This document shows, in pieces, positions 464-12,849 of a stretch of DNA of 23,263 nt (within the stretch, counting starts at the first letter, position 1; each line of letters begins with the position of its first letter). The stretch comes from a virus. The position numbers and the translations under genes were made by a program. The stretch is from positions 1 through 23,263 of the IMG/VR virus record IMGVR_UViG_3300049491_000339. One strand, written 5' to 3'. The notes beneath the pieces are model-generated. The model was given only the letters and a program-made list of their open reading frames with translations. It was not told where the DNA came from and did not search any database.

Positions 464-521
464 GCCTAACCCTTCGCTCAAACGGACTGCCTACGGCAGC
501 CGTTTAGCTCAAACGTTAGGC
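464..521 (+). repeat. attC-like site A (58 bp)
   Basis: R'' core GCCTAAC (464-470), 9-nt spacer CCTTCGCTC, a stem starting AAACGG that pairs with CCGTTT, 9-nt spacer AGCTCAAAC, then R' core GTTAGGC (515-521). The layout matches classical integron attC sites of about 60 bp (AAC-9 nt-AAGCCGA ... GGCTT-9 nt-GTT). The fit to the attC consensus is good only when read on the plus strand. The R' core supplies the TAA stop of the gene at 516-866. Activity is not shown by sequence alone. Confidence 0.8.
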
Positions 522-866
522 CCCAAGCCGCTGCATCAGCGCAGTGGCTTGGCCCGTTTCAAAATCCGCCTCACCGTGCTGCTCTGCAAACGCCGTGATC
601 TGGCCCACCAAGTCGCGCACGCATTCCAGCAACTCAGGAACGGCGGCTATGCGCCCATCGGTCAGTGGCGCGGCATCTGCGCGGTCTGCCAGGTTCATCG
701 TCATCGCGCCGAGCTCGGTGATCCAATCCAATGCCTGCGCCAGTTCAATGCGGTGTGGCCACGGCTGCCCGTTTTGCCAGTCGATCCCTTTGCCGTCGAA
801 GGCTTGCGAGTAACCAAGCGCCGTTCGGGCTGCGCTGCGTGCAGCATCGGTGTTCAATTCAGCCAT
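516..866 (-). CDS. Hypothetical phage protein, 116 aa
   Basis: ATG 866 is preceded by AAGAAGGA at 9 nt. The product is acidic and helical, with a late segment MQRLGA and no membrane segment or recognised motif. The TAA stop (516-518) is made from the R' core of attC-like site A, so the last codon GCC and the stop are recombination-site sequence. Site B lies just upstream of the ribosome binding site, giving a gene-sized unit bounded by two attC-like sites. Gene direction is opposite to the attC polarity. Function unknown; the opposite-strand frames here are of shadow quality. Confidence 0.68.
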   Translation of the reverse strand: MAELNTDAARSAARTALGYSQAFDGKGIDWQNGQPWPHRIELAQALDWITELGAMTMNLADRADAAPLTDGRIAAVPELLECVRDLVGQITAFAEQHGEADFETGQATALMQRLGA

Positions 867-904
867 CTTGTAAGTCCTTCTTACAGGTTCGCTTCGGAAG
901 CAGG

Positions 905-963
905 GCCTAACAAGCCAATCAACCCGGACGCCCTACGGGCGCCGGTTATTGGCAACGTTGGGC
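905..963 (+). repeat. attC-like site B (59 bp)
   Basis: R'' core GCCTAAC (905-911), spacer AAGCCAATC, stem AACCGG-like sequence with GCCCTACGGGC at the tip, spacer ATTGGCAAC, and R' core GTTGGGC (957-963). The spacers are again 9 nt but differ in sequence from the CCTTC...TCAAAC type, so B belongs to another attC subtype. The minus-strand gene at 933-1148 reads through R' and stops in the hairpin. Confidence 0.75.
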
Positions 964-1148
964 TGCGTGCTGTTGCTCGTCACAACCCGAAGAATCGGCT
1001 CAATGAAGCCGAAGCATCCCACCTTCGGAGTCCAAGCGGGCGCCACATACCACTGGTATAGACCGCCAGGCTCTCGGCGGCGGCACTGCTGGCACGCAGG
1101 CGCGGTTGTTCCGGCGCAGCGTGCAACGTCGTCAGGCAAGGTGCTCAT
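933..1148 (-). CDS. Small Cys-containing phage protein, 71 aa
   Basis: ATG 1148 lies 2 nt after the stop of the gene at 1151-1474, so translation is probably coupled. The sequence has two cysteine pairs (CAGTTAPACQQC region, residues 11-22), then QWYVAPAW and GCFGFIEP. It resembles small phage proteins I have seen in betaproteobacterial phages but cannot name. The C-terminus (about TQPNVANNRRP) is encoded by attC-like site B itself, past its R' core and into the stem, which suggests the original end was lost when the site arrived. An upstream extension of this frame to 1415 is read as a shadow. Confidence 0.6.
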   Translation of the reverse strand: MSTLPDDVARCAGTTAPACQQCRRREPGGLYQWYVAPAWTPKVGCFGFIEPILRVVTSNSTQPNVANNRRP

Positions 1149-1150
1149 GA

Positions 1151-1474
1151 TCAATTCACCTTGTCGCCAACCTGCGGGCCTTCGATGGTCTGCACCATCG
1201 AATCCACAGCAAGCCGCGCGCTCAAGTAGCGGTGCAGGTCGCCCAGAGTCGCCGGCTGAATCTGCTTGCCCATCGGTGCATCGCGGCAGCAGTCTCCGGC
1301 ACACCCGCTGCGCATGTTCCAGCTTACCGGGTGGCCGGTGTCTCGCTCGGGCCAATACCGCCACAGCGCGCCGCAAACAGTGCAGCGGTGCGTAGGTGCT
1401 GGTTCGCTTCTCCACGCGCCGCCCAACCCTTCCATCGAGCCGACCTTTGCCGGCGTAGTTCCTTCAGTGCTCAC
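1151..1474 (-). CDS. Cys-rich phage protein whose start lies inside attC-like site C, 107 aa
   Basis: The start is GTG 1474 with AAGGA 5 nt upstream; both lie in the terminal loop of attC-like site C. The N-terminus MSTEGTTPAKVGSMEGLG is encoded by the loop, the stem arm and R''. The body then has CTVCGALW and CAGDCCRDAPMGKQIQP, a Cys-pair pattern suggesting a small zinc-binding protein. The C-terminal half is helical. The N-terminus closely resembles that of the Rieske-motif protein (2043-2639). Function unknown. The gene is followed at 2 nt by the gene at 933-1148, so this inter-attC unit carries two genes. Confidence 0.68.
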   Translation of the reverse strand: MSTEGTTPAKVGSMEGLGGAWRSEPAPTHRCTVCGALWRYWPERDTGHPVSWNMRSGCAGDCCRDAPMGKQIQPATLGDLHRYLSARLAVDSMVQTIEGPQVGDKVN

Positions 1475-1522
1475 GGTGTCCTTTCTTGCGCCGTCAAAGG
1501 CGGCTCATGTCAAACGTTAGGC
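1421..1522 (+). repeat. attC-like site C (102 bp) with RBS and start codon in its loop
   Basis: R'' core GCCCAAC (1421-1427), spacer CCTTCCATC, stem GAGCCG.CCTTTG pairing with CAAAGG.GGCTC, spacer ATGTCAAAC, and R' core GTTAGGC (1516-1522). Plus-strand polarity by the attC consensus. The loop of about 50 nt holds, on the minus strand, AAGGA and GTG 1474 of the next gene. The stop of the gene at 1524-1820 follows R' by one base. Confidence 0.8.
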
Positions 1523-1523
1523 C

Positions 1524-1820
1524 TCAAACAAACACCGGCTGCGGGCGCCCTGCGATTTGCAGCATTTTACCTTCGCCTTCGCCGCCTTGAATCGGCCTCA
1601 AGCACTCGTCGGCGATGAAACAAGGGAAGCTAAGAGCATGCGCATCACACAGCCAAGCTCTCACCTCACCCGGTCCAATGCACCTAGACTGCCTGCCGTT
1701 GCGCATTGCGATAACTTCGCCGTAGGCGGCTCTTCGCACAACCTCAACGGGGCGGCCGATGTCTGCATCTACAAACCACGGCCTGACAATGACCGCTATC
1801 TGCCCTGGCTTACAGTTCAT
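1524..1820 (-). CDS. Small phage protein beginning MNCKPG, 98 aa
   Basis: ATG 1820 is chosen over the longer frame to 1910 because GGAG stands 8 nt upstream and the protein then begins MNCKPGQIAVIVR, an N-terminus I associate with small uncharacterised phage/prophage proteins that often end in a DECLRPI-like motif, also present here. Composition suggests a small beta-rich domain. It stops at TGA just past the R' core of attC-like site C. Site D lies upstream, with about 120 bp between its R'' core and this gene. Function unknown. Confidence 0.75.
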   Translation of the reverse strand: MNCKPGQIAVIVRPWFVDADIGRPVEVVRRAAYGEVIAMRNGRQSRCIGPGEVRAWLCDAHALSFPCFIADECLRPIQGGEGEGKMLQIAGRPQPVFV

Positions 1821-1881
1821 GCGGTCGGCTCCAATCGCCCTGCGGATACGCAAGGCTAAAAGTTTCAGGCGCCCATGCTGG

Positions 1882-1971
1882 TTACAGCATCGGCTTGTGC
1901 CGGCTGGCACTCTTGCGGGCTTCGGCCAAACTAAAATTGAGGCCTAACCCTTCGGTCGAGCGGACCTCCAC
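1882..1971 (-). other. Possible relic of an attC-started gene (29 codons)
   Basis: A GTG at 1971 in the stem of site D opens a frame whose product starts MEVRSTEGLGLNF, the same R''-encoded STEGLG-type peptide seen in the genes at 1151-1474 and 2043-2639. It ends after 29 codons and has no clear ribosome binding site. It may be the dead start of a lost cassette gene or simply the consequence of R'' being open in this frame. Confidence 0.25.
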
Positions 1972-2055
1972 CAGCTTGGCCCCGCGATCCGCTCAGGTTC
2001 ATGATCCGTCTCGCGAGGCCAAGCTGGCGGCGTCCGCTCACCTCAAACGTTCGGC
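1942..2055 (+). repeat. attC-like site D (114 bp)
   Basis: R'' core GCCTAAC (1942-1948), spacer CCTTCGGTC, stem GAGCGGAC...CCAGCTTGGCC pairing with GGCCAAGCTGG...GTCCGCTC, spacer ACCTCAAAC, R' core GTTCGGC (2049-2055; C at the fourth position departs from GTTRRRY). It is one of the longer, better-paired sites. The stop codon of the Rieske-motif gene (2043-2045) lies in the R'-side spacer. About 120 bp between R'' and the next gene hold only a short frame (1882-1971). Confidence 0.8.
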
Positions 2056-2639
2056 GTCTCATGACGGGCCAGCAGCAGGCCGGTCCGCATGTCCCACCGC
2101 AGCCCATGGCCAGGGCAGATAGCCGTCCCGTCCGCGTGCTCAAACGGCCGCAGGTCGATGCCACGGTGCGGGCATGTGTGGCCGTCTTTCAGCCTGTCGC
2201 AGCGCGTGCGTTGTGCAGCCTCCATCGCGGCCCATGGTTGTCTAGGCTGCACCGGGAAGTCGGGCATCACTCGGTGGCACTTGCGCCGCTTCACGACGGG
2301 CAGGCCAGTCAGCGATTGTTTGAACTGGTCCGGGTTGTCATTGCTAATGACATGTCCGTGTGGGTGGCCTGCAATCCCGCGTGAGCAGCCCACAAACATT
2401 TTCTCGCTGGCAAATCGCCAGTCAATGTGCCAGTGCTCCCGGTCCACGCCCAACTCCAAGTCGCGGTGCTTTGACCCGATCACGGGCACCCACTCTTCAC
2501 CGTAGAACTTTGCCCACACATGCACGCAAAGCACGCGGTAGAACGAGCTCACTTCCGCACGCTCCGGGCCGAGACGGGCCGAGACGCCGAACCCTTCGGT
2601 CGAGCCAAAAATCAACGGCGTACTTGCTTCAGTGGTCAT
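2043..2639 (-). CDS. Rieske [2Fe-2S]-motif protein, 198 aa
   Basis: ATG 2639 overlaps the stop of the coiled-coil gene (ATGA) and has AAGGA 9 nt upstream. Near the C-terminus it carries C156-P-H158 and C175-P-G-H178 with 16 residues between, matching the Rieske cluster pattern CxH...CxxH, flanked by RG and GHGLRWD.RTG as in Rieske ferredoxins. The N-terminal 120 residues hold EHWHIDWRF and a His-rich HPHGH, with no oxygenase catalytic domain recognised. Residues 12-18 (GSTEGFG) are encoded by an attC R'' half-site. Rieske-motif proteins of unknown role occur in phages of this kind; electron transfer to a host or phage enzyme is inference. The stop falls in attC-like site D. Confidence 0.82.
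   Translation of the reverse strand: MTTEASTPLIFGSTEGFGVSARLGPERAEVSSFYRVLCVHVWAKFYGEEWVPVIGSKHRDLELGVDREHWHIDWRFASEKMFVGCSRGIAGHPHGHVISNDNPDQFKQSLTGLPVVKRRKCHRVMPDFPVQPRQPWAAMEAAQRTRCDRLKDGHTCPHRGIDLRPFEHADGTAICPGHGLRWDMRTGLLLARHETPNV
2586..2606 (+). repeat. attC-like half-site (R'' arm only)
   Basis: GCCGAAC, CCTTCGGTC and GAGCC reproduce the R'' core (one mismatch), 9-nt spacer and stem start of site D. The R' arm is missing: beyond the loop-like segment the DNA is the 3' end of the coiled-coil gene. It is translated as GSTEGFG in the Rieske-motif protein. It marks the boundary between the attC-bearing accessory block and the core operon. Confidence 0.6.
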
Positions 2640-3862
2640 GTTGTCTGTCCTTTCGCCGTCTCCGTTACGCGCAGCCGCTCGATGCACTCGACCAGCGGCC
2701 GGAGCCGGGCAAACTGCAATTCGGTGTAGAGCTTCGCTGCCTTGTCGGTTGCCGCTGGGTTGATGCCGAGTTGAGCCAGGCCGGCAGCGTCGATCTTGAG
2801 CGGGGCGATGCGCGCATTGATGGCGCCAATGTTCAGGGTGGCGGGTTCGTCGGTGTTCGGGGCGCGGTCCCCCTCGGGGGTGGCGATTTGCGGGAAGTGG
2901 TCGGGGACAGGCGTTGCCACCGGGATGAATGCAACGCCGCCGATTGCCCCGATCTTCTCGAACAAGTCGGCCGCCGTCTCGTTTGGCAGCGCGGCGAGGC
3001 GTGCGGCTTCCTGCTGCGCGACAAACTCGGCCCGCTGTTTGTCGATGTCGGCCTGTGCCGCCGCGATGCGTGCGCGCTCCGCTTCCTGATCGGCAGAGAC
3101 CCGCTGTTGTTCAACGCGGGCGGTTGCCTCGTCCTTCGCTTTCCGTTCGGCTGCCTCGGCGCGCAGGCGGTCGAGTTCTTCTCGCTCGGCTGCCAGGCGT
3201 GCAGTTTCGGCTTCGGTGTGCAGCGCGGCTTTGTGCGCGACTTCGAGCTTCGACACTGTGGCGGTTCGCGCTGCTTCGGCCTGGGCGCCAAGTTCTTGAA
3301 ACACCTTCGGATCGAGCGTGCGGCTGCGCAGCTCTGCCAGCGCTTCGGCGATGACTGCCGAGCCTTTGCTGGATGCGATGGTCGCATCCATGTGAATCTC
3401 GGCGATGGCGTCTTGGATCGCCTGCACCCGGCCAAACTCGGCGGCGATGCGGGCTTGCTTCGCGTCTTCCTTGCGCTTCTCTTCGGCCTTGATTTGGGCA
3501 TCGACGGGGCCTTCGCCAATCAGCAGTTGCTCGGTCAGCCACGCAGCGCGCGCATCGATGTCTTTGCCAAGCGCCAGCACGGGCGCCTTGGCCTGCTTGC
3601 GCAGCCGCTCGACGCTCAGGCGGGGCTCACGCCACGCCGCCCGGTGAGCAACAGCCTCAACCATTCCGGCGCCAGTGGTCACGTCGTAGACCAGATCGAC
3701 GGGGTAGCGCGCGGCGATGGCGGCGAGGCCGGCGCTCACCTTGTCAAATTCGGACAATGCCGACTCCACCTGAGTGATGTTCTGGCGGATGGCCACAGTT
3801 GATTTTTCAGCGGCTGGCGCAGCCGGTTCCGCGGCGCTCAGGTCTTCGATGATGTATTCCAT
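2636..3862 (-). CDS. Coiled-coil phage protein of the recombination operon, 408 aa
   Basis: ATG 3862 has GGGAGGA 5 nt upstream and lies 13 bp after the SSB stop; the longer in-frame start at 4009 is rejected because it lies inside the SSB gene. Residues about 120-300 are rich in Ala, Glu, Arg and Lys with heptad-like spacing (EAARTATVSKLEVAHKAALH, ERARIAAAQADIDKQRAEF), a long coiled coil. A globular N-terminus and a Pro-containing C-terminal domain flank it. It resembles uncharacterised phage coiled-coil proteins beside recombinases (DUF1351-type is a possibility I cannot verify). Its position after Sak4-like ATPase and SSB suggests a recombination accessory role. It overlaps the next gene by ATGA. 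Confidence 0.82.
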   Translation of the reverse strand: MEYIIEDLSAAEPAAPAAEKSTVAIRQNITQVESALSEFDKVSAGLAAIAARYPVDLVYDVTTGAGMVEAVAHRAAWREPRLSVERLRKQAKAPVLALGKDIDARAAWLTEQLLIGEGPVDAQIKAEEKRKEDAKQARIAAEFGRVQAIQDAIAEIHMDATIASSKGSAVIAEALAELRSRTLDPKVFQELGAQAEAARTATVSKLEVAHKAALHTEAETARLAAEREELDRLRAEAAERKAKDEATARVEQQRVSADQEAERARIAAAQADIDKQRAEFVAQQEAARLAALPNETAADLFEKIGAIGGVAFIPVATPVPDHFPQIATPEGDRAPNTDEPATLNIGAINARIAPLKIDAAGLAQLGINPAATDKAAKLYTELQFARLRPLVECIERLRVTETAKGQTT

Positions 3863-3875
3863 GATGTCCTCCCGA

Positions 3876-4529
3876 TCAGAACGGAATGTCGTCGTCCATG
3901 TCATCGAACGACGTGCGCGGCGCGGCGATGCTGGCGGCTTGCTGCGGTTGTCGCTGCGGTGCTGCCCCATATGCTGGCCGAGCTTTTCGGTCGCGCAGGG
4001 ACTCAACAATCTTGGCCAGTTGGGCGGGCACAGTCTTCCGGTCCAGAATCTCGCTAGCCGTCAACTCGGTGTCGGCCTGGAACACGCCAGCCAGCACCAT
4101 GCGGCGGCCGGTGTCGCCGTTGTTCTTGGTGTAGTCCTCAGCTTCAAGCAGCACGCCGATGGGCTTGCCTTGCAGGTCGTGGAACAGCTTCCCGTCCACA
4201 TCGACTTCGGCGCCTGCATCGTTGTCCCACTTCTTGAACTTGCTGGCAGTCGGCTGGATAGCACGCAGCCGCAGGCACGTCAGCATCGCCATCACAAAGG
4301 CGTGTCCAATGTTGATGCGCGAGCCATCGCCCTTCTCGGTATAGATCGCGAAGCGGCAGGACTGGCCACCGTTCGACTTGAAAGCGAAGTCGATGCCGCG
4401 CGTATTCTTCGGTGCGGCAGTGGTGATGTCTTCAGCTTTCGTGAACACGCCGAGGTACTTGCCGGTTTCGGTAATTTGGCCGCCGCGCTGGTCGGCCTTG
4501 CGTGCGCTTTCGGTGTCGAGTTGGTACAT
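3876..4529 (-). CDS. ssb: Phage single-stranded DNA-binding protein, 217 aa
   Basis: ATG 4529 has AAGGA 6 nt upstream. The N-terminal ~160 residues form a beta-rich domain (GKYLGVFTKAEDITT, KGIDFAFKSNGGQSCRFAIYTEKGD, GKLFHDLQGKPIGVLLEAEDY). A basic, Gln/Pro-rich linker follows, and the C-terminus is DDMDDDIPF. An acidic tip ending in Phe is the partner-binding signature of bacterial and many phage SSBs. It sits directly downstream of a Sak4-like ATPase, a pairing known for phage recombinases that act on SSB-coated DNA. The N-domain is not a clear match to E. coli SSB, so the assignment rests on the tail and context. Confidence 0.75.
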   Translation of the reverse strand: MYQLDTESARKADQRGGQITETGKYLGVFTKAEDITTAAPKNTRGIDFAFKSNGGQSCRFAIYTEKGDGSRINIGHAFVMAMLTCLRLRAIQPTASKFKKWDNDAGAEVDVDGKLFHDLQGKPIGVLLEAEDYTKNNGDTGRRMVLAGVFQADTELTASEILDRKTVPAQLAKIVESLRDRKARPAYGAAPQRQPQQAASIAAPRTSFDDMDDDIPF

Positions 4530-4544
4530 GGTGGTTCCTTGTGT

Positions 4545-5201
4545 TTAGGCGGGTTGTGGCGCGAGGCCGTAGTAATCGACGATGGCTGCGTCCACGGCTG
4601 CCAAGTCGTTGTCGATGTGGTCGTCTTCGAACATCCCCATCGGTGTTTTCACGGTGTCCTGCCCGTTGTTGTGGGTGCTCAACAGGTATTGCCCGTTGAT
4701 GACGTTGGTTCGCAGGACTACGGAAAACATGCCCTCAACACAAATCTTCTCGTCAAGCAGCTTGCCGATGGTCTTGGCCTTGATGCGGCCGGTGTCGTCG
4801 GTATCGGTGTGGGCCAGGATGTAAACACGAACGTCCTGCGCCAGCGCGCTTGCGGCAGTCAGGATGTCCCACGCATGCCGGCCGATGTCACTGAACTTCT
4901 GGAAGCCGGTCTGGTCACTGCGGCGCATGTACTCGTTCGCAAGAACGTACTGGAAGTCATCGAGCACGATCACCTTGCGCTTGGTCTTGCTCATCGCGGA
5001 CACGATGTCGTGGCTCTGGTCAAGCACCCAGATATTGCCTGTTGGCTTGTCGGTCTTGTGCCACTCTGCCCACTCCTTTGAGCGGAACGGAAGCGGCTTG
5101 CGGACGGCTTGAATCAGCAGCGTTTCGGATGCCTTCAGGTTGCGCAGGCTCGCGGACTTGCCGGAGCCAGATTCGCCGAGGATCAGTGTCGAAGTGCTCA
5201 T
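4545..5201 (-). CDS. RecA-fold P-loop ATPase, Sak4-type recombinase, 218 aa
   Basis: ATG 5201 has AGGA 9 nt upstream. Walker A is GESGSGKS (9-16) and Walker B VIVLDD (77-82) followed by FQYV; a sensor-like VYILAHTDT follows near residue 130. The length suits the single-domain Sak4/AAA_24 ATPases that phages use for single-strand annealing and homologous recombination. The partner SSB gene follows 15 bp later. The C-terminus has EDDHIDNDLAAVDAAI, with no further domain. A packaging or DNA-repair ATPase is less likely given the neighbours. Confidence 0.82.
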   Translation of the reverse strand: MSTSTLILGESGSGKSASLRNLKASETLLIQAVRKPLPFRSKEWAEWHKTDKPTGNIWVLDQSHDIVSAMSKTKRKVIVLDDFQYVLANEYMRRSDQTGFQKFSDIGRHAWDILTAASALAQDVRVYILAHTDTDDTGRIKAKTIGKLLDEKICVEGMFSVVLRTNVINGQYLLSTHNNGQDTVKTPMGMFEDDHIDNDLAAVDAAIVDYYGLAPQPA

Positions 5202-5234
5202 GGTGTTTTCCTGTGCTTGGTGGTATGTGGTGGA

Positions 5235-5441
5235 TCAATCGCGCAGCAGAGCCAGCCTGACGCGCATTTCGGCAAGGTCGCGATCAAGCTGGCGAAGATG
5301 CCGCGGCCCGCGCTCGACAACATCGGCCAGGGTTTCGCGGTCCTGCTCGGCCCACTTGATCGAGTACGCGAGTTGCAGCGCTTCAAGGCGCCGGCCGAGC
5401 CAGCTGCGCAGGCCGCGCCGGGTGTGAACTGCGGTGTTCAT
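5235..5441 (-). CDS. Small basic helical protein, 68 aa
   Basis: ATG 5441 overlaps the stop of the small membrane protein (ATGA) and has GGGAGAGG 6 nt upstream; the longer frame to 5606 covers other genes and is rejected. The product is Arg- and Leu-rich, mostly helical (LEALQLAYSIKWAEQDRETL, LRQLDRDLAEMRVRLALLRD), and could form a short coiled coil. No family recognised. It is the last small leader gene before the ATPase. Confidence 0.65.
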   Translation of the reverse strand: MNTAVHTRRGLRSWLGRRLEALQLAYSIKWAEQDRETLADVVERGPRHLRQLDRDLAEMRVRLALLRD

Positions 5442-5542
5442 GCGAACCTCTCCCAAAGTTGCGGGGCGAACCAGAGCGACAGAAGCAGGGCCGCAGATGC
5501 GCCCCAGCAGAAGCCCTCTGCGAGCTGGCGAAGCGCGCTCAT
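5438..5542 (-). CDS. Tiny single-pass membrane protein, 34 aa
   Basis: A 34-codon frame starts at ATG 5542, overlapping the previous stop (ATGA), and its TGA overlaps the next ATG (5441). The product MSALRQLAEGFCWG then ASAALLLSLWFAPQLW forms one hydrophobic segment with a short charged end. The double stop/start overlap, typical of this operon, is the main support; the ribosome binding site would lie in the preceding gene. Function unknown. Confidence 0.6.
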   Translation of the reverse strand: MSALRQLAEGFCWGASAALLLSLWFAPQLWERFA

Positions 5543-5931
5543 TCGCCGCACTCCAGCTCGGCCAGCGCCGCCGCGTTGTCGCTGGCGTAGGCGCGGGCAA
5601 TGGCAACCTTCAACGTTGCGACCCGCGGACAGACCGACTCGGCCAGTACGGTGCGCAGCGTCGCGAGCACGTCCAGGTGGTCGAGCGCATCGTCCAGCAC
5701 CTCGATCATGGATTGCGTGGCGCGCTTCGGCACGCCGCCGATCGGGTAGCGCACGCAGTCAATGCAAGGGTCTTTGGTGGTGTCGTTCAGCCCCGCCAGC
5801 ACCTTGATGACCAGCTCGGTCGTGATGCGGCCGGTGGTCACATCAAGCAGCGCAGCTTTTTTGTCGGCCGCGTCGATGCGATCTTGATGCGCAGCCTGGG
5901 CGGCGCTGTCAAAGCAGACAACGGCGCCCAT
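5539..5931 (-). CDS. Hypothetical early protein, 130 aa
   Basis: ATG 5931 overlaps the stop of the preceding gene as TGATG; the longer start at 6030 is rejected for that reason. The product begins MGAVVCFDSAAQAAHQDRID, is soluble and helical, and has CIDCVRYPIGG near the middle, one possible metal or redox Cys pair. It ends ELECGE, with its TGA overlapping the next ATG. No family recognised. Confidence 0.7.
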   Translation of the reverse strand: MGAVVCFDSAAQAAHQDRIDAADKKAALLDVTTGRITTELVIKVLAGLNDTTKDPCIDCVRYPIGGVPKRATQSMIEVLDDALDHLDVLATLRTVLAESVCPRVATLKVAIARAYASDNAAALAELECGE

Positions 5932-6188
5932 CACAAGCCCCTCTGCATGTAGGCCGCGAGTTGCGCGATTACCAAGCAGGCAGCCACCAGCCCCAAGGCA
6001 AAGCCGGCGAACGCAGGAACCACCCACCACGGGCCGGCTTGGCTCTGATCTTCAGGCTCGGGGTCCGGCGGGCGGATCGGCTCGGGATCGACGATGCCGC
6101 ACTCGCTTTCGAGCATTCGCAGCTCGGCGGAGCGCTTGAGCCAGTCCGCGCCGGACGTGGCGTCGAAGTTGTCGTAGAAGCTGACCAT
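5931..6188 (-). CDS. Single-pass membrane protein, 85 aa
   Basis: ATG 6188 overlaps the previous stop (TGATG), favoured over the GTG one codon earlier. The first ~55 residues are acidic and end in a Pro-rich stretch (PEPIRPPDPEPEDQSQ). One transmembrane helix follows (about residues 54-80, WWVVPAFAGFALGLVAACLV) and a short basic end MQRGL. It would be anchored in the inner membrane with the acidic part on one side. No family recognised. Confidence 0.72.
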   Translation of the reverse strand: MVSFYDNFDATSGADWLKRSAELRMLESECGIVDPEPIRPPDPEPEDQSQAGPWWVVPAFAGFALGLVAACLVIAQLAAYMQRGL

Positions 6189-6379
6189 CACAAACCCCCC
6201 AATTCAGTTTGCGGCTCGCCGGTGAATCGCCGTGCACTGTTCTGCGCGGCGCGACGGACCAACAGGTTGCGCATGCGGTCTTCGTCGGTCATCCGTGCGG
6301 CGATCAACGGGAAGCCGCTTGTGCGCAAGGCAAAGGCGTCGCGCGCCTTGTCAGTTTCGCTCGATGTCTTGGTTTGCAT
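6188..6379 (-). CDS. First gene of the leftward operon, small protein, 63 aa
   Basis: ATG 6379 has GGAGG 6 nt upstream and lies about 40 bp downstream of the strong leftward promoter. The product is basic, with an Arg-rich middle (RMRNLLVRRAAQNSARRF), and no recognised motif. As the first gene behind the repressed promoter it could be an early takeover or regulatory protein; that is inference from position only. Confidence 0.7.
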   Translation of the reverse strand: MQTKTSSETDKARDAFALRTSGFPLIAARMTDEDRMRNLLVRRAAQNSARRFTGEPQTELGGL

Positions 6380-6420: not shown

Positions 6421-6449
6421 ATTACACCACCCGATGAATTTTTTGTCAA
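6421..6449 (-). promoter_or_regulatory. Leftward early promoter (P-left type)
   Basis: On the minus strand TTGACA (6449-6444) is followed by 17 bp and TGTAAT (6426-6421), a near-consensus sigma-70 promoter. Operator O1 overlaps its -10 and spacer; O2 abuts its -35. Transcription would start near 6414 and run the whole leftward operon. Confidence 0.82.
6423..6438 (+). promoter_or_regulatory. Operator O1
   Basis: TACACCACCCGATGAA, a weaker copy of the 16-bp operator TACACCATACGATGTA (O3, inverted). It lies over the -10 and spacer of the leftward promoter. Confidence 0.55.
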
Positions 6450-6463
6450 CACCAAACGATGTA
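6448..6463 (+). promoter_or_regulatory. Operator O2
   Basis: AACACCAAACGATGTA, differing from O3 at two positions and followed by the same G. Next to the -35 of the leftward promoter. Confidence 0.65.
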
Positions 6464-6496
6464 GGGAAACGAAAATATTTTTAGCAGGAAGGGTGT

Positions 6497-6524
6497 TGCG
6501 CTTGTCTACATCGTATGGTGTAAT
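6497..6524 (+). promoter_or_regulatory. Rightward promoter for the regulator, probably leaderless mRNA
   Basis: TTGCGC (6497-6502), 16 bp, TGTAAT (6519-6524). The expected start of transcription falls at about 6530-6532, on the ATG at 6531. No ribosome binding site precedes that ATG, consistent with a leaderless message. The -35 match is only moderate. Confidence 0.5.
6507..6522 (-). promoter_or_regulatory. Operator O3
   Basis: TACACCATACGATGTA on the minus strand, imperfectly dyadic (TACA...TGTA). It is the inverted match of O2 and overlaps the putative -10 of the regulator promoter, so bound regulator could repress its own gene. Confidence 0.65.
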
Positions 6525-6530
6525 GGTGCC

Positions 6531-6806
6531 ATGAAAAAGCTCAAGGCGTACCTTGCGACGCTTCCCCCGCAAGACCGAATTGACCTTGCCGAGAGGTGCG
6601 GTACCACGATGGGGCACCTGCGGAACGTCTCATACGGCGACCGACCGGCCTCGGAGGGATTAGCCGCTGCCATCGAGCGCGAATCTGCCGGTGCGGTCAA
6701 GTGCGAGGAAATGCGGCCGGACGTGCGTTGGTTCCGCCAGCCTGATTGCGCATGGCCGTGGCACCCGAAAGGCAAGCCGCTGGTCGATGTGGTGAGCGTG
6801 GACTGA
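6531..6806 (+). CDS. YdaS/Cro-like HTH regulator, 91 aa
   Basis: The N-terminal ~60 residues (MKKLKAYLATLPPQDRIDLA, AERCGTTMGHLRNVSYGDR, SEGLAAAIERES) fit the YdaS-type helix-turn-helix of prophage Cro-like proteins: a short helix, a turn-containing pair and a recognition helix. The C-terminus (DVRWFRQPDCAWPWHPKGKP) is typical of such proteins. It faces a divergent leftward promoter over three operators, so it probably controls the early operons. The start lacks a Shine-Dalgarno and is probably read from a leaderless mRNA. A CI-type repressor with a protease domain is not visible in the window. Confidence 0.8.
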   Translation: MKKLKAYLATLPPQDRIDLAERCGTTMGHLRNVSYGDRPASEGLAAAIERESAGAVKCEEMRPDVRWFRQPDCAWPWHPKGKPLVDVVSVD

Positions 6807-6915: not shown

Positions 6916-7682
6916 ACTACTACGAACACCACCTCGGCGACTACGCCGCCGCCACGGCTCATCTGTCGTGGGATGAGGACATGGCCTACACGCGGCTCCT
7001 GCGCGCGTACTACCACTACGAGCGTGGTATCCCCGAGGGGCAGCAGTACCGGCTAGCTCGGGCAGCGACGCCGGCACAGCGCAAGGCGGTTGACATCGTG
7101 CTAGGCGAGTTCTTCGTGCTGGGCGATGGCTCCTACAAGCAGCGGCGCGCGGAGGCTGAAATCGAGCGCTACCAGGACAAGCAGCGCAAGGCAAAGGCAT
7201 CTGCGAGTGCGCGCTGGGCTAGTGCCAAAACGCATAGCGAAGGCAATGCGAACGCATCACCGAACGCATCACCGAACGCATCACCGAACGCAATGCGAAC
7301 GCATAGCGAAGGCAATGCTCCCAATCACCAGACACCAGACACCAGACAAGAGATATCGGAGCCTTCGGCTCCTCACCCCAAACCTGCGGTTTCGGGGGTG
7401 GTGCGGTTCCCACCTGGGTTCGAGGATTTCTGGAAAGCCTACCCCCGGAAGGTCGGGAAGGACGCCGCGGCGAAAGCCTTTGCCAAGCGCCGCCCGAACG
7501 CCGATTTGCTGGCGGCGATGCTGGCCGCTGTGGCATTGCAGCGGGCGTCAGAGGCATGGACGAAGGACGGCGGGCAGTTCATCCCGCACCCGGCGACATG
7601 GCTCAACGAGGGCCGCTGGCAGGACGAGGTTTCTCCGGCTGCTGGTGGCGAGTTGGCAACGCTTTTCGGGAGGGCGCTGTGA
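6912..7682 (+). CDS. DUF1376 (YdaU-like) phage replication protein, 256 aa
   Basis: GTG 6912 overlaps the previous stop and has GGAG 9 nt upstream; the GTG at 6897 is rejected for lack of one. Residues 1-95 match the DUF1376 family seen in prophage replication genes (NYYEHHLGDYAAATAHLSWD, MAYTRLLRAYYHYERGIP, AVDIVLGEFF). A low-complexity linker with SPNA repeats follows (DNA 12-mer repeats). The C-terminal ~80 residues (FPPGFEDFWKAYPRKVGKDA, FIPHPATWLNEGRWQDE) resemble the DnaT-like C-terminal part of phage primosome proteins. It probably loads or assists the DnaB-type helicase two genes downstream. Confidence 0.82.
   Translation: MNYYEHHLGDYAAATAHLSWDEDMAYTRLLRAYYHYERGIPEGQQYRLARAATPAQRKAVDIVLGEFFVLGDGSYKQRRAEAEIERYQDKQRKAKASASARWASAKTHSEGNANASPNASPNASPNAMRTHSEGNAPNHQTPDTRQEISEPSAPHPKPAVSGVVRFPPGFEDFWKAYPRKVGKDAAAKAFAKRRPNADLLAAMLAAVALQRASEAWTKDGGQFIPHPATWLNEGRWQDEVSPAAGGELATLFGRAL
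7231..7317 (+). repeat. In-gene tandem repeat (12-bp units inside 18-bp flanks)
   Basis: GAACGCATCACC occurs three times in a row (7250-7285) with a partial fourth. The block is bracketed by two exact copies of CGCATAGCGAAGGCAATG (7231-7248, 7300-7317). All are in frame and encode the linker of the DUF1376 protein (SPNA repeats, THSEGNA twice), so copy number can vary without a frameshift. Confidence 0.85.
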
Positions 7683-8041: not shown

Positions 8042-8976
8042 ATCTCATTTTGGAAGCCGACAGCATCGACTTCGCCCACTACATGCGCGACACCGACGCT
8101 GAGGCAAAGGTGAAGCCGGTTGAGCATTGGGAAGACGACCTGAACGACGAATTTTCAGTCCATGGGGGCGCGTCGTCGGGAACCTGCCTGCCGTGGTCGA
8201 AGCTGGGCAACCGATTTGCCCTGCGGCCCGGAGAGGTGACGCTGTGGTTTGGGTTCAACGGTCACGGCAAGAGCCTTTTGCTGGGTCAGGTGATGGAGAG
8301 CGCAGCTGCGCAAGGTGAGCGCACGTGCATCGCCAGCTTTGAGATGCGACCCCGCAAGACGCTTGCCCGCATGGCGAGGCAGTGGGCCGATTCTTTCGCC
8401 CCGACGCCGCGCGAAGTGGGTGCATTTGTGCGCTGGGCGCATGGGGTGCTTTGGGTCTATGACCAAGTGGGCACCGTCGAACCCGAGCGGGTTTTCGCTG
8501 TGATCCGCTACGCCGCCGACAAGCTCAAAGTTCGGCATTTCGTGGTTGACAACCTCACCAAGTGCGTGAAGGCGGATGACGACTACGCCGGGCAGAAATC
8601 CATTGTGGACAAGCTCACTGCACTGGCACAGGAACTGTCGATTCACATTCATCTTGTGCACCACGCGCGCAAGGGCATCGACGAAACCCGACCACCGAGA
8701 AAGATGGACGCACTCGGCGCCAGCGCCATCACCAACCTTGTGGACAACGTGTGCATCGTGTGGCGCAACAAAGCCAAGTACGAGGCGCAGAGCCCGGACA
8801 TGAGCCAGCCTGACGCGATGTTGATCGTGGACAAGCAGCGCCACGGCAGCGGTTGGGAGGGGGTGCTGAACCTCACGTATCACCAGCGTTCATGCCAGTA
8901 CATCGAGCATGGTTCGCACGCAATGGACATGGCGGACTTCCCGCACGGCTTCGCCGACGAAAGGGCTGCCGCATGA
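8038..8976 (+). CDS. DnaB-type replicative helicase, C-terminal domain only, 312 aa
   Basis: ATG 8038 overlaps the previous stop. The protein has a RecA-like helicase core: Walker A GFNGHGKS (72-79), FEM (101-103), Walker B HFVVDNL (167-173), HLVHHARK (205-212) and a late IVDKQRHG (263-270), as in DnaB/T7 gp4/Twinkle helicases. The primase-interacting N-domain of DnaB is absent; only ~60 residues precede the core. It would unwind the phage fork in the cytoplasm, loaded with help from the DUF1376 protein. The Walker A is slightly unusual (FNGHGKS). Confidence 0.88.
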   Translation: MNLILEADSIDFAHYMRDTDAEAKVKPVEHWEDDLNDEFSVHGGASSGTCLPWSKLGNRFALRPGEVTLWFGFNGHGKSLLLGQVMESAAAQGERTCIASFEMRPRKTLARMARQWADSFAPTPREVGAFVRWAHGVLWVYDQVGTVEPERVFAVIRYAADKLKVRHFVVDNLTKCVKADDDYAGQKSIVDKLTALAQELSIHIHLVHHARKGIDETRPPRKMDALGASAITNLVDNVCIVWRNKAKYEAQSPDMSQPDAMLIVDKQRHGSGWEGVLNLTYHQRSCQYIEHGSHAMDMADFPHGFADERAAA

Positions 8977-9176
8977 CCAGCGACGACGCAACCCGCAGCG
9001 AGTCCGGCACTCGTGAGTACGCGCAGCAGATCGTCGGCCCGACGTACTACTGCAACCATTGCCAGCGGCCGGGGCGGTCGGTCACCGGCAGGCGCAGCCG
9101 GTTCCTGCGGCTGTGGGGCATCAAGCAACCGGCGTGCACGGACTGTCTGATCCGCATCGACAAGGGGCGCGTATGA
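8973..9176 (+). CDS. Small zinc-ribbon-like protein, 67 aa
   Basis: ATG 8973 overlaps the helicase stop (ATGA). Two Cys pairs, CNHC (27-30) and CTDC (55-58), are spaced 24 residues apart around a basic segment (RRSRFLRLWGIK). This is the layout of a single zinc ribbon that could bind nucleic acid. No family name. The TGA overlaps the next ATG. Confidence 0.72.
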   Translation: MTSDDATRSESGTREYAQQIVGPTYYCNHCQRPGRSVTGRRSRFLRLWGIKQPACTDCLIRIDKGRV

Positions 9177-9354
9177 ACAAGCCCCGCATTCGGCTTTTGG
9201 GCGGCTTTTGGGCGGCGTGTGGGTGTGCTTCAGCGGCGCCCGCGTGGTGAGTTCGATGGGCCGGGCCATGGTTGATTTTGCTGACCGAATCGGGTTTGGC
9301 TGGTCGCCGCTCGATGCCTACGACGACTGGCTTTTGAGGGAGTTGCGAGCATGA
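9173..9354 (+). pseudogene. Small phage gene frameshifted by an 11-bp tandem duplication
   Basis: From ATG 9173 the frame ends after 25 residues (TGA 9248-9250). The 11-mer GGCTTTTGGGC occurs twice in tandem (9192-9202, 9203-9213). With one copy removed the frame runs unbroken to TGA 9352-9354, giving 56 residues, MNKPRIRLLGGVWVC joined to a tail ending DAYDDWLLRELRA. That stop then overlaps the next gene's ATG, as at other junctions here. So the intact reading is clear and the gene is broken by slippage, unless recoding restores it. The intact product has no recognised function. Confidence 0.75.
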
Positions 9355-9683
9355 GCACGATGGACGAACTGTTCGACGGCAGCGATGCCCACCTGCTGCC
9401 GGACCCGCAGACCAGCTACATCCTGCGCGCCGAGCTGCCCGCGATTTCACTGGCGCTGCACAAGCGCACGCCCTACGTCTACAGCAACGTCAGCGCCGGG
9501 CAGTTGAGCATCGCGCGGCATTCGGGCATGTGCGTGGTGAACAGCGAGACCTACATCTACTTTGCCGAGTTCGACGAGTTGGTGCGGGATGACGTGCTGG
9601 CATTCGTTCACAAGCGGCGCGGCGCCGCCGAAGCGCTCGACCGCATGGCCGAAAACGCGCGGCAGTTGAGGCTTGAGCTGTGA
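9351..9683 (+). CDS. Hypothetical protein, 110 aa
   Basis: ATG 9351 overlaps the end of the frameshifted gene. The product begins MSTMDELFDGSDAHLLPDPQ, has a beta-rich middle (YVYSNVSAGQLSIARHSGMC) and a charged helical end (KRRGAAEALDRMAENARQLR). No recognised motif or membrane segment. Its TGA overlaps the GTG of the NinB-like gene. Probably an accessory of the replication/recombination operon. Confidence 0.72.
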   Translation: MSTMDELFDGSDAHLLPDPQTSYILRAELPAISLALHKRTPYVYSNVSAGQLSIARHSGMCVVNSETYIYFAEFDELVRDDVLAFVHKRRGAAEALDRMAENARQLRLEL

Positions 9684-10219
9684 CCGAGTACGCCGTCACC
9701 AGATTTGTCGGCAGCCGAGAGGGGGCGCACGAAGCATCGATCGCGATGTACCAGCACGCACAGCTGCTGATCGGCCTTGGCAAGCGCGTGAAGTTCATGG
9801 TGGACGAAGCCGAGGACGAACTGAGCGTGCTTCAGCGCGGGTTCCTGCACGCTGCGGTGCTGCCGCAGATCGCCGAGCAAGTGCGCATGCCTGATGGTAC
9901 GCGCTACGTCGCGGCGGTGTGGAAGGAACATCTGAAGGACTTGTTCATCGCGGACAAGTGGGACATGGTGCGGCTGCCGTTCGTGAAGAACCGCAAGACT
10001 GGTGAATGGAAACCTTCGAGCAAGAAGGTTCCGGTGAAGCGCCGTAAGAGCACCGAGGCGCTGTCGATCCGGCAGTACAGCACCTTCATCGACCAGTGCA
10101 TCGCGCACGCTTCGAGCGAGTGGGGAGTGGTCTTCCAATTCCGTGCTGAAGAACGCGACGCCGTACGCTACGTCGCGCCGCCGCGCAAGGTCAAGCAACG
10201 CGAGGCGGTGCTGGCATGA
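9680..10219 (+). CDS. ninB: NinB-like recombination protein, 179 aa
   Basis: GTG 9680 overlaps the previous stop. Features that recall NinB/Orf of lambda-like phages are the N-terminal Arg/Lys-containing module followed by FLHAAVLPQIAEQV and VWKEHLKDLFI, then a basic central stretch (RLPFVKNRKTGEWK, SSKKVPVKRRK) and a C-terminal helix with YSTFIDQCIAHA.EWGV. NinB/Orf binds single-stranded DNA and SSB and replaces RecFOR functions. The position between helicase and RusA-like genes fits. Assignment is by pattern only. Confidence 0.68.
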   Translation: MTEYAVTRFVGSREGAHEASIAMYQHAQLLIGLGKRVKFMVDEAEDELSVLQRGFLHAAVLPQIAEQVRMPDGTRYVAAVWKEHLKDLFIADKWDMVRLPFVKNRKTGEWKPSSKKVPVKRRKSTEALSIRQYSTFIDQCIAHASSEWGVVFQFRAEERDAVRYVAPPRKVKQREAVLA

Positions 10220-10434
10220 CCACGCTGCGCTGCTTCCGCTGCCACCGGCCGATCAAGGCCGCCACGAAGGAGATCCCGGCGATCGGCGGGGATCTCATGT
10301 TCGGCCCGAAGTGCGCCGAGAAGGCGGGGCTGCGCGACCGCGAGCGCGTGAAAGTGGTTCGCGCTCAGGTGCGCGGTACGTCGTGGTTCGACCCGCTTCA
10401 GATTCCGCTCGACCTGGGGCAACCATGCGCCTGA
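10216..10434 (+). CDS. Small Cys-motif protein, 72 aa
   Basis: ATG 10216 overlaps the NinB-like stop. CFRCHRPI (C6, C9) and FGPKCAEKAGL (C33) suggest a small metal-binding knuckle, seen in many phage nin-region proteins. The rest has no motif. It overlaps the RusA-like gene by 10 bp. Confidence 0.65.
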   Translation: MTTLRCFRCHRPIKAATKEIPAIGGDLMFGPKCAEKAGLRDRERVKVVRAQVRGTSWFDPLQIPLDLGQPCA

Positions 10435-10760: not shown

Positions 10761-11179
10761 GTTGGACGAAACCCGCGCCCCGAGTGCGCCAGTGGGGCGG
10801 ACCGATGCCCACGCCGCGCCAGACCGTCGTGGCTGCGCCTGCGCCGGCCCGGCCGATCATCAGCCTGCCGAAGTCGCAGCCGCGTCGCTCGCAGGCCTAC
10901 CTTCGCTGGGTATCCAGCCTCCACTGCGCGCACTGCGGCAAGGCTCCGCCGAATCAGGCATGCCACAGCGACGAGGGCAAGGGCCTGGGCATCAAGAGCG
11001 GCGACGATTCGGCCTGGCCGGGCTGCGCTGACTCGCCGGGCCGCGTTGGGTGTCATTCGATCGTCGGGTCGTCGGGCCTGTTCACGCGCGACCAACGCCG
11101 AACGCTCGAAGCCACCCGCGCCGCCGACACCCGCGAGCGTGCGCGCCGCACCGGAAACTGGCCGAAGGAGTGGGCATGA
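10757..11179 (+). CDS. HNH-like zinc nuclease / nin-region protein, 140 aa
   Basis: GTG 10757 overlaps the previous stop. The N-terminal ~45 residues are Pro-rich and unordered. Then come CAHCGKAPPNQACHSDEGKG, LGIKSGDDSAWPGC and GCHSIVG, with Cys pairs and paired His residues as in zinc-stabilised HNH nucleases of the NinG/YbcO/DUF968 kind. A basic helical C-terminus (RDQRRTLEATRAADTRERAR) follows. Role likely in recombination or DNA end processing; which family it belongs to I cannot say. Confidence 0.62.
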   Translation: MSWTKPAPRVRQWGGPMPTPRQTVVAAPAPARPIISLPKSQPRRSQAYLRWVSSLHCAHCGKAPPNQACHSDEGKGLGIKSGDDSAWPGCADSPGRVGCHSIVGSSGLFTRDQRRTLEATRAADTRERARRTGNWPKEWA

Positions 11180-11430
11180 ACGACCAGTGCACCGCCTGCA
11201 CGAAGGCCATGACCGCGCCCCGAATCGACCTCTGGGCTGCGAACTGCGAATCGTGCAGCGCCCGCGCGCTGGCCGTGACTGGTGCACACGTCGAATCCAA
11301 GGCCGCCGGCCGCGTGACGCCGCGCTACGTCGAGGTGCTGAAGGGCATCTTTGGCGAGCGCTGGAAGGAGGGTGCGGAGCTGGTCAAGCAGTGGGCGGTC
11401 CGTGCCACAGCCGCCCAACGTTTGACATGA
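11176..11430 (+). CDS. Small zinc-finger-like protein ending in attC-like site E, 84 aa
   Basis: ATG 11176 overlaps the previous stop. Two Cys pairs, CTAC (5-8) and CESC (24-27), frame a probable zinc knuckle; the C-terminal half is helical (YVEVLKGIFGERWKEGAELV). The last codons (Gln Arg Leu Thr) and TGA are part of attC-like site E (R' core and its 9-nt spacer). It is the last gene of the rightward early operon, and the minus-strand module at 11503-12254 converges on it. Confidence 0.7.
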   Translation: MNDQCTACTKAMTAPRIDLWAANCESCSARALAVTGAHVESKAAGRVTPRYVEVLKGIFGERWKEGAELVKQWAVRATAAQRLT

Positions 11431-11508
11431 GCCGAAAACCCGGCCGCTCAGACGTGAAAGATGGACCACCCGTAAGCCGGGGTTTTCGGCTCGATGGAAG
11501 GGTTAGGG
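11413..11508 (-). repeat. attC-like site E (96 bp)
   Basis: Read on the minus strand: CCCTAAC (11508-11502; first base departs from RYYYAAC), spacer CCTTCCATC, stem GAGCCGAAAACCC pairing with GGGTTTTCGGCTC, spacer ATGTCAAAC, R' core GTTGGGC (11419-11413). It sits where a plus-strand operon and a minus-strand operon meet; the long hairpin could also act as a two-way terminator. The minus-strand gene at 11503-11697 ends exactly at R'', the usual cassette order. Confidence 0.82.
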
Positions 11509-11697
11509 CGCTGATGGGTCTGGAACAACCGATGCAGGACGACCGACTGGACGGGCAGGCAGACCGACACGCGCGGCGATGCGGCGCGCCTGGTGCACTG
11601 ACAGGCCAAACTTGCGCGCAGCCTCGGCGGCAGTTCCGTGGCCAGCGGCGAGCCATTTGGCTGCGCGCTCGGCGGCAGCGGATGGCCGGCCGCTCAC
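11503..11697 (-). CDS. Small HTH DNA-binding protein, 64 aa
   Basis: GTG 11697 overlaps the upstream stop. Residues about 10-45 (AAERAAKWLAAGHGTAAEAA, RKFGLSVHQARRIAARVGL) form a helix-turn-helix of the kind in resolvase C-termini and small phage regulators. The tail is Pro-rich (PARPVGRP). The TAA stop is inside the R'' core of attC-like site E. It may regulate the module promoter at 12290-12318; that is inference. A terminase-small-subunit-like HTH is an alternative but TerS is present elsewhere. Confidence 0.7.
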   Translation of the reverse strand: MSGRPSAAAERAAKWLAAGHGTAAEAARKFGLSVHQARRIAARVGLPARPVGRPASVVPDPSAP

Positions 11698-11942
11698 GAC
11701 AGCAGCGCCAAGACCGGCTCGCCCTCGGCGCGGCCATCGATCAGCATTTCGACACGACCGATGGCTGTGGCATCACCCCATCCCATCACCGCATCCGGCT
11801 CAACAGAGACAACGCGGTACTCACACGTTGCTCCAGCGACACCCTCGATCCCGCGCTTGCCGAGCGAGCGCTTGCCAGCCAGGCGCTCGATGGTGCCGGT
11901 GTGTGCGTCGCGGGCGATGGTCGAAAAGTAAGTGTGGCTCAT
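11694..11942 (-). CDS. Hypothetical module protein, 82 aa
   Basis: ATG 11942 has AAGGAG 9 nt upstream; the stop overlaps the GTG of the HTH gene. The product begins MSHTYFSTIARDAHTG and contains EYRVVSVEPDAVMGWGD and VEMLIDGRAEGEPVLAL, a small alpha/beta or beta-rich soluble protein. No family recognised. Confidence 0.7.
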   Translation of the reverse strand: MSHTYFSTIARDAHTGTIERLAGKRSLGKRGIEGVAGATCEYRVVSVEPDAVMGWGDATAIGRVEMLIDGRAEGEPVLALLS

Positions 11943-11963
11943 GGTCTTTGCTCCTTGGTTGAC

Positions 11964-12254
11964 TCAGGCGCGGCCGGTGGCGCTGGTGCGCTCAACCAAG
12001 CGGCGGGCGTTGTAGGCGGATTGCTCGGCAAGGTCGCGGGCGCTCGGCTCAATGTCGGCCATCAGCTTGCGCATCGGCTCTTGCGAGAGGATGTCGCCGC
12101 GGCCCGCGTCCTTGGTGGCCTTGACCATTGCGCGGTACGTGGCCGCCGGGATCTCGCCGAAGGGGAAGCGGGCGTTTTCGACGCGCTCGACGGTGCCATC
12201 TGGGCGGGCGATGGTGAGGATGACGCCGCAGGTTACTTCAATCATCTTGGTCAT
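11964..12254 (-). CDS. First gene of the minus-strand module, 96 aa
   Basis: ATG 12254 has GGAG 7 nt upstream; the start at 12398 lies across the promoter and is rejected. The product begins MTKMIEVTCGVILTIARPDG, a beta-rich N-domain, followed by MVKATKDAGRGDILSQEP and a helical end. I associate this kind of N-terminus with small uncharacterised phage proteins. It lies 36 bp downstream of a good promoter and heads a three-gene unit opposed to the phage rightward operons. Confidence 0.75.
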   Translation of the reverse strand: MTKMIEVTCGVILTIARPDGTVERVENARFPFGEIPAATYRAMVKATKDAGRGDILSQEPMRKLMADIEPSARDLAEQSAYNARRLVERTSATGRA

Positions 12255-12356: not shown

Positions 12357-12470
12357 CTCTAACGTTTGACATGAGGCGCAGCCACCGGCTTTGCGCATGG
12401 AGCGGAAACTATGAATGGTGAAGTGGAATGCGCAAAGCCGGTGGCTGTCGCTTCGATGGAAGGGTTAGGT
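12357..12470 (-). repeat. attC-like site F (114 bp) with a start codon in its loop
   Basis: Read on the minus strand: ACCTAAC (12470-12464), spacer CCTTCCATC, stem CAGCCACCGGCTTTGCGCAT pairing exactly with its complement, spacer ATGTCAAAC, then GTTAGAG (12363-12357; last base departs from GTTRRRY). It is the best-paired stem of the set. On the plus strand the loop holds GGAG and ATG 12411. Confidence 0.82.
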
Positions 12471-12701
12471 TTCACTTTGCACCTGCCGCAATGGGCTTTG
12501 CTGGTGGCATGTGTGGCTGCGCTCTTGACAACTGCGGCGTGGTGGTTTGCGGCGCTGATGTTAGTGGCAGACTGGTGGGTTCCGCAGGAGTCGCCTGTTG
12601 TGGCTGGCTTCCTACGCTTTGGTGGTTTTTGGGTGTCTGGTCTTCTTTCTGGTCTTGCTTTGGCAATATTGCTTGAACGAGAAGCCCGGCCGCAGCAGTG
12701 A
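12411..12701 (+). CDS. Membrane protein starting in the loop of attC-like site F, 96 aa
   Basis: ATG 12411 has GGAG 8 nt upstream, both in the attC loop. The N-terminus includes VASMEGLGF, the R''-encoded peptide also seen in the gene at 1151-1474. Two hydrophobic segments follow (WALLVACVAALLTTAAWWFA and FWVSGLLSGLALAILLE) and a short charged tail. A small two-pass membrane protein, possibly holin-like in size, but nothing else supports lysis. It overlaps the minus-strand frame 12472-12849 in antisense, and only one of the two may be real. Confidence 0.45.
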   Translation: MNGEVECAKPVAVASMEGLGFTLHLPQWALLVACVAALLTTAAWWFAALMLVADWWVPQESPVVAGFLRFGGFWVSGLLSGLALAILLEREARPQQ

Positions 12702-12849
12702 TAAAGATGCCGGCGACTACCTTTATGACGTTGTCTCTAACCCAATGCCAAGTTGCACGCAAGACGGTCTTGGCTTTGTGTTCAGGCTCATCGATGTAGT
12801 AATCAATGCCGCCAGCCGCAAGATCATCGTGCGGGCTATTGCTGCTCAC
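12472..12849 (-). CDS. Single-pass membrane protein in usual cassette order before site F, 125 aa
   Basis: GTG 12849 opens a frame with an acidic N-terminus (DDLAAGGIDYYIDEPEHK), one transmembrane helix (about 37-63, VIKVVAGIFITAAAGLLVQA) and a long Gln/Pro/Thr-rich tail. The TGA lies one base before the R'' core of site F, exactly where a cassette gene should end. The ribosome binding site is poor. The tail lies opposite the hydrophobic part of the plus-strand frame 12411-12701, so its composition could be a shadow, but the helix is mostly outside that overlap. Confidence 0.5.
   Translation of the reverse strand: MSSNSPHDDLAAGGIDYYIDEPEHKAKTVLRATWHWVRDNVIKVVAGIFITAAAGLLVQAILPKQDQKEDQTPKNHQSVGSQPQQATPAEPTSLPLTSAPQTTTPQLSRAQPHMPPAKPIAAGAK

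Follow-up and report, generated by a model that had tools for sequence, protein, structure and literature searches.

The window studied here is the whole of the IMG/VR record IMGVR_UViG_3300049491_000339 (23,263 bases), which belongs to a tailed phage. Its left arm is a single operon on the minus strand, beginning near 6.4 kb and cut by the record edge at position 1. The arm contains four attC sites of plus polarity and a decayed fifth, and the genes between these sites are on the minus strand. Two further attC sites, E and F, have the opposite polarity and adjoin plus-strand genes. The sites and backbone genes are listed below; each attC site is given with its weight-matrix score and the predicted folding energies of the bottom and top strands.

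464-521, plus: attC A (R'' 464-470, R' 515-521), score 71.5, bottom -18.6 and top -16.4 kcal/mol
905-963, plus: attC B, score 43.8, bottom -17.1 and top -17.0 kcal/mol, a near tie
1421-1522, plus: attC C, score 74.2, bottom -25.9 and top -20.9 kcal/mol
1942-2055, plus: attC D, score 70.9, bottom -42.9 and top -34.6 kcal/mol
2583-2670, plus: decayed attC of repeat family D2/D5, R''/L'' half (2583-2605) intact, R' (2663-2670) reduced to CGTTACGC
2636-6379, minus: upstream part of the left operon, including an ssb-like gene (3876-4529) and an AAA ATPase gene (4545-5201, AAA_24)
11413-11508, minus: attC E, score 72.6, bottom -26.4 and top -25.1 kcal/mol, opposing the plus-strand operon
12357-12470, minus: attC F, score 63, bottom -35.5 and top -31.5 kcal/mol
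13756-15234: terminase
15550-17181: head-tail connector/portal
18665-19510: capsid protein

The sites were identified with a scanner that combines a two-half weight matrix with helix pairing. The six sites score between 44 and 74; applied to 312 kb of shuffled sequence, the scanner returned nothing at or above 20. The boxes RYYYAAC and GTTRRRY flank imperfect L''/L' arms in the window sites; the R' box of site D (GTTCGGC) is one base off. Since the R'' box is almost a palindrome of the R' box, the polarity of a site rests on its inner arms. Compared with the aadA7 consensus, the extra base of every left-arm site is in the plus-strand 5' half. Folding predictions for the six sites put the bottom strand at a lower energy than the top strand in every case, at site B by just 0.1 kcal/mol, and on the bottom strand of site A an extrahelical T and G are bulged on the R''/L'' side. 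The initial annotation had assigned plus polarity to the left-arm attC sites and minus-strand orientation to their genes, and had named fold prediction of both strands as a result that could overturn the call. The assignment is upheld by the consensus and by the extrahelical bases on the more stable bottom strand, which is favoured at all six sites (site B being a near tie). Moreover, bacterial genes come out sense under the same polarity call, which validates it.

The profile search for IntI found no intI within the 23-kb record. Two or more attC sites without a nearby integrase define a CALIN, and the record taken by itself would fit this; the record stops inside the array, however, so that the attI region and any intI of this phage lie outside it. 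IMG/VR records are mostly fragments. Six backbone relatives of the window have no intI, and the two of them scanned nearly whole for attC gave no match.

The genes of the cassette region are the following.

1-435, minus: gene cut by the record edge, coding score 11, short matches in array phages L381 (intI phage G025) and L390
516-866, minus: gene whose TAA stop lies in R' of A, 88% identical across 68 aa to a gene of L073 that lies beside the attC of that contig
933-1148, minus: gene with 41% identity over 69 aa to an array gene of intI phage G011
1151-1474, minus: open reading frame only, weak coding score, start possibly inside attC C
1524-1820, minus: gene with 53% identity to L164/L184 and 44% to L012, phrog_2529 (E=1.4e-6)
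2043-2639, minus: gene 63% identical, across its full length, to the intI-adjacent cassette of L438, phrog_10072 (E=3.7e-15)

The reading frame of the fifth gene is open to 1910, and its homologs align from the ATG at 1820. The loop of site C holds a minus-strand GTG with an AAGGA-type ribosome-binding site. The left-arm genes had been described as ending at or in R', and this is largely borne out at the nucleotide level: the stop at 516 is a TAA inside R' of A (offset -5), that at 1524 is 2 nt outside R' of C (offset +2), that at 2043 is a TGA in L' adjoining R' of D (offset -12), and that at 933 is deeper, on the loop/L' side of B (offset -30). The offsets -5, +2 and -12 are the three commonest stop offsets among the other viral contigs. 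In a bacterial-type array genes are sense to attC and stop at R''; the left-arm genes are antisense.

Some of these genes have relatives in phages that carry intI, and the matches in L073, L164/L184 and L012 likewise lie in arrays. Contig L438 is otherwise unrelated to the window, as its other genes have no match to the window backbone, and it keeps a full attC (6246-6345) at the place of the decayed site at 2583-2670, with the gene start in the loop. In intI phage L452, ATPase (68%) and ssb-like (41%) genes as in the window precede reversed cassettes and intI. A back-translated scan for the 2043-2639 gene returned no relative, and L438 surfaced later via its intI. The left arm had no blastn match among annotated phages, and the products of 1524-1820, 2043-2639 and 11964-12254 had no tblastn match there; the searched collection of annotated phages lacks these cassettes.

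Sites E and F form an exception. Three minus-strand genes lie between them (11503-12254: an HTH-like gene at 11503-11697, then 11694-11942 and 11964-12254), and these are sense to the sites. The initial annotation extended the left-arm relation to site E; this holds for the plus-strand gene 11176-11430, which ends in the R'/L' side of E, but not for the genes between E and F. Host cassettes in the E-F interval were considered and the idea was weakened: the gene 11964-12254 (coding score 19.6) has a 56% homolog in L007 that is likewise on the minus strand and outside any array. To judge from that homolog, the E-F interval may hold a phage module on the minus strand instead of a captured cassette. 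At site F two overlapping reading frames, 12411-12701 (plus) and 12472-12849 (minus), both score poorly and neither was chosen. The longest-frame test described below calls the E-F interval antisense, a test that is noisy in GC-rich DNA.

To place the left arm in a wider context, IMG/VR was scanned with three attC patterns (one R''-L'' and two L'-R') and bacterial genomes with the R''-L'' pattern, and viral and bacterial loci were run through one attC scanner and one simple gene finder. The matrix sees beta/gamma-proteobacterial attC types only, hence all attC counts are lower bounds. Among viral contigs with scorable genes, 89 were antisense, 21 sense and 7 tied, against 3, 72 and 4 bacterial loci. 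Gene stops at viral sites were antisense in 162 cases and canonical in 11; at bacterial sites 3 were antisense, 163 canonical and 2 both. The same contrast was obtained independently of the gene finder by a cruder test, the longest reading frame between neighbouring sites, with antisense to sense ratios of 197:75 in viruses and 19:206 in bacteria (Fisher p=3e-51). The stops are mirror images: the TAA in R' ends 75 of 199 phage genes, and the TAA in R'' ends 74 of 167 bacterial genes. About a fifth of the scorable viral contigs (~21) are majority sense; at least one of these (L073) is a gene-finder error, and others may be real.

Of the 73 sites in ten larger phage contigs, 71 have a polarity opposed to the local operon, and at these the bottom strand is the coding strand. 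Contig G002 has plus attC sites in its minus arm and minus attC sites in its plus arm. The polarity of attC follows the operon, not the genome strand. Accordingly, the proposal that gene direction is set by the phage operon and not by the bacterial cassette rule finds support both in these 71 sites and in the polarity flip within G002. Homologous cassette-gene pairs in the sample surveyed (n=40) linked phage to phage in 22 cases, bacterium to bacterium in 18, and phage to bacterium in none. The phage cassette cargo includes at least eight DNA methyltransferases, a Lar restriction-alleviation protein, an ERF recombinase, NinB and an RNA ligase. As a separate observation, the terminase matches in attC-bearing viral contigs L081, L221, L234 and L172 contain an in-frame TGA, which could reflect stop recoding, frameshifts or read-through past the true stop.

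Full integron integrases were found in four of 50 attC contigs tested, with scores of 420-450 bits against a TIGR02249 cut-off of 265. Two of these four, G011 and G022, have capsid and tail genes, and G011 additionally has terminase and portal genes. Phage IntI aligns over its full length with VchIntIA (2a3v, residues 4-313) and keeps the catalytic R...HxxR...H...Y residues as invariant columns. A profile scan yielded 226 IntI-encoding viral stretches, and the best 80 of these were taken for layout analysis. In this set, the polarity of attC relative to intI was canonical in 92 of 92 scored sites, as it was in 48 of 48 bacterial sites, and the attI-side genes were on the intI strand versus the opposite strand in a ratio of 197:11, compared with 3:41 in bacteria. 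The combination of uniform attC-intI polarity and reversed genes indicates that the recombination geometry is conserved and that the cassette genes alone are flipped. The four phages inspected all have an attI-like motif, whose end reads GTTRGGC or similar, separating intI from the first cassette; with the strict attI pattern, just 12 of 62 viral intI loci gave a match. When 70 viral IntI were placed in a tree together with 60 bacterial ones, 58 of them grouped as a single clade (SH-aLRT 99). Several of the remaining viral IntI, including those of L452 and L474, fall elsewhere in the tree, and their layout is likewise reversed, which points to more than one origin.

Taken together, the left arm is probably part of a phage integron, or the remnant of one, whose cassettes are read in reverse, from a phage early promoter toward attI and intI. 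Judging from the operon layout, this promoter would be at the far end of the operon, and transcription would proceed through recombination genes to the cassettes and on to attI and intI. When transcription comes from the side opposite to the bacterial Pc, only cassettes with reversed genes are expressed; with the early promoter on the far side and intI last, or nearly last, in the operon, the expressed genes must point toward attI. The side of the promoter would then account for the reversal, so the recombination chemistry need not change. The gene direction in phages argues against a Pc that reads from attI into the cassettes. Followed in the direction of transcription, each cassette would have its start codon just past or inside its own attC, and its gene would stop in the R' half of the following site, at the crossover or close to it. 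IntI, provided in cis, by a co-resident phage or by the host, could insert and excise cassettes via the folded bottom strand. The intI of the window would be expected to the left of position 1, past the record edge, or may have been lost.

In the reversed arrangement the bottom strand is the coding strand. Were replication to run in the direction of transcription, it would also be the lagging-strand template. In large chromosomal integrons the bottom strand is mostly on the leading template. The GC skew of the phage arrays tracks the coding strand and does not settle the direction of replication. Excision and insertion are more frequent when the bottom strand is on the lagging-strand template (PMC5371416, PMC11023631). 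If replication follows transcription, placement on the lagging template would be a second, compatible factor for the reversal.

Phages would exchange small accessory genes, such as DNA methyltransferases and Lar-type restriction-alleviation genes, through a cassette pool of their own, which bacterial integrons would read backwards, and vice versa. We lean toward the broader view that phages have their own integron lineage, read toward the integrase from a phage promoter, and that the phage and bacterial pools are mutually unreadable, a crossing cassette staying silent until its gene or site is flipped.

Two causes of the left-arm layout had been put forward initially, from one genome record in which no integrase is seen. 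The observation that gene direction follows the operon stands, but neither cause is supported as stated. Co-directional insertion as stated is unsupported, because an ordinary cassette keeps its gene sense to its own attC wherever it is inserted. Use of the sites as operon spacers leaves unexplained the many phages in which the integron integrase is intact and the array ends in an attI-like site. A related explanation, in which a host integrase captures orphan attC sites singly in operon gaps and the phage has no integron of its own, is the best of the alternatives, though an unlikely one. It could keep the antisense polarity if the bottom strand is on the lagging template, or if a bottom-strand hairpin suits the phage mRNA. 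It fits the lack of intI in the window record and in most of the attC contigs examined, the bottom strand being the coding strand at 71 of the 73 sites in the ten larger contigs, and the established strand effects on recombination (PMC5371416); IntI1 can use phage attC sites (PMC9892861). Against it, dozens of phages with the same array carry intI, some with a recognisable attI, and the cassette genes of the window are homologous to cassettes of these intI phages.

It is highly improbable that the sites are attC look-alikes acting as terminator or processing hairpins of the phage mRNA. They do form hairpins between genes and supply stop codons, but their R''/L''/L'/R' boxes, extrahelical bases and spacing match those of bacterial sites, and such sites stand beside intI in uniform polarity. 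Antisense cassettes exist in bacteria, where they are rare (5 of 317 sites scored), yet chance antisense capture of ordinary bacterial cassettes, or a chance run in one genome, hardly deserves credence, being already contradicted by the systematic bias across about 90 viral contigs on several backbones, by the lack of phage-bacterium pairs among the 40 homologous cassette pairs, and by the phage-type cargo (NinB, ERF, Lar).

The reverse-read phage integron proposed here shares with sedentary chromosomal and class 1 integrons the IntI family, the attC structure and an intI divergent from the attC polarity. Bacterial integrons have Pc-driven genes that point away from attI, in contrast to phage genes, which run toward attI on the strand of intI. 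In the 'reverse' integrons of Treponema, intI is on the cassette-gene strand, as in the phages, and it is intI that is said to be flipped; in the phages the normal intI-attC geometry is kept and the cassette genes are flipped instead. The inverted superintegron of Vibrio cholerae (PMC11023631) shows that cassette excision depends on which strand carries the attC bottom strand. There, the whole array is inverted relative to replication, and gene and attC stay mutually sense, unlike in the phages.

Integrase-less attC arrays in virulent phages, and CALINs and integrons in phage genomes, were described by Qi et al. 2023 (PMC9892861). Five of six attC sites tested there, from phages TJE1, PH101 and P12002L, recombine with IntI1, the bottom strand being preferred. 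The accessible text of that paper describes one-direction arrays with some divergent sites; neither a systematic reversal of genes versus attC nor a phage IntI clade was found in it. The complete integron of Shewanella phage M16-3 (Qi et al.) has genes divergent from intI, which is the bacterial layout, unlike that of the reversed phages. Virus Rctr41k (L396, KX853513.1) has the same layout as the reversed phages at 2317-5678, with an IntI-family gene (48% to phage IntI) downstream of small same-strand genes; its attC sites, if any, are of another type. No attC was found in Rctr41k or M16-3 with our matrix of beta/gamma-proteobacterial types. Phage attC arrays are already known (PMC9892861); no description of gene-versus-attC reversal in phages was found in the openly available published papers searched.

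The same reversed layout occurs in many other phages, including dozens with their own intI, so it seems that phages maintain a form of the bacterial gene-capture system of their own, one that is read backwards. If this is true, integrons are no longer solely a bacterial platform, many phages having their own integrase clade and a reversed cassette design through which small genes (DNA methyltransferases, restriction-alleviation proteins) are swapped. It would also explain the presence of attC in phage genomes and split two cassette pools by reading direction. Furthermore, the idea that the side of the promoter, and not recombination, sets the polarity of cassette genes would become testable. 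Reversed arrays would be misread by annotation tools built on the assumption that genes are sense to attC.

Several other elements were observed outside the arrays of the window. The divergent left and right operons are separated by an 81% inverted repeat at 6449-6521 (ACACCAAACGATGTAGG / CTACATCGTATGGTGT), which is likely the operator of an early switch; a YdaS-like HTH gene (6531-6806) adjoins it. A DUF1376-like gene contains short tandem repeats at 7229-7318 with a 12-nt unit, CGAACGCATCAC, that encode NASPNASP repeats. Phage G032 (L386 15621-16823) has in common with the window (8973-10434) only a short early-gene block, at 94%, 81% and 72% identity, a sign of recent module exchange.
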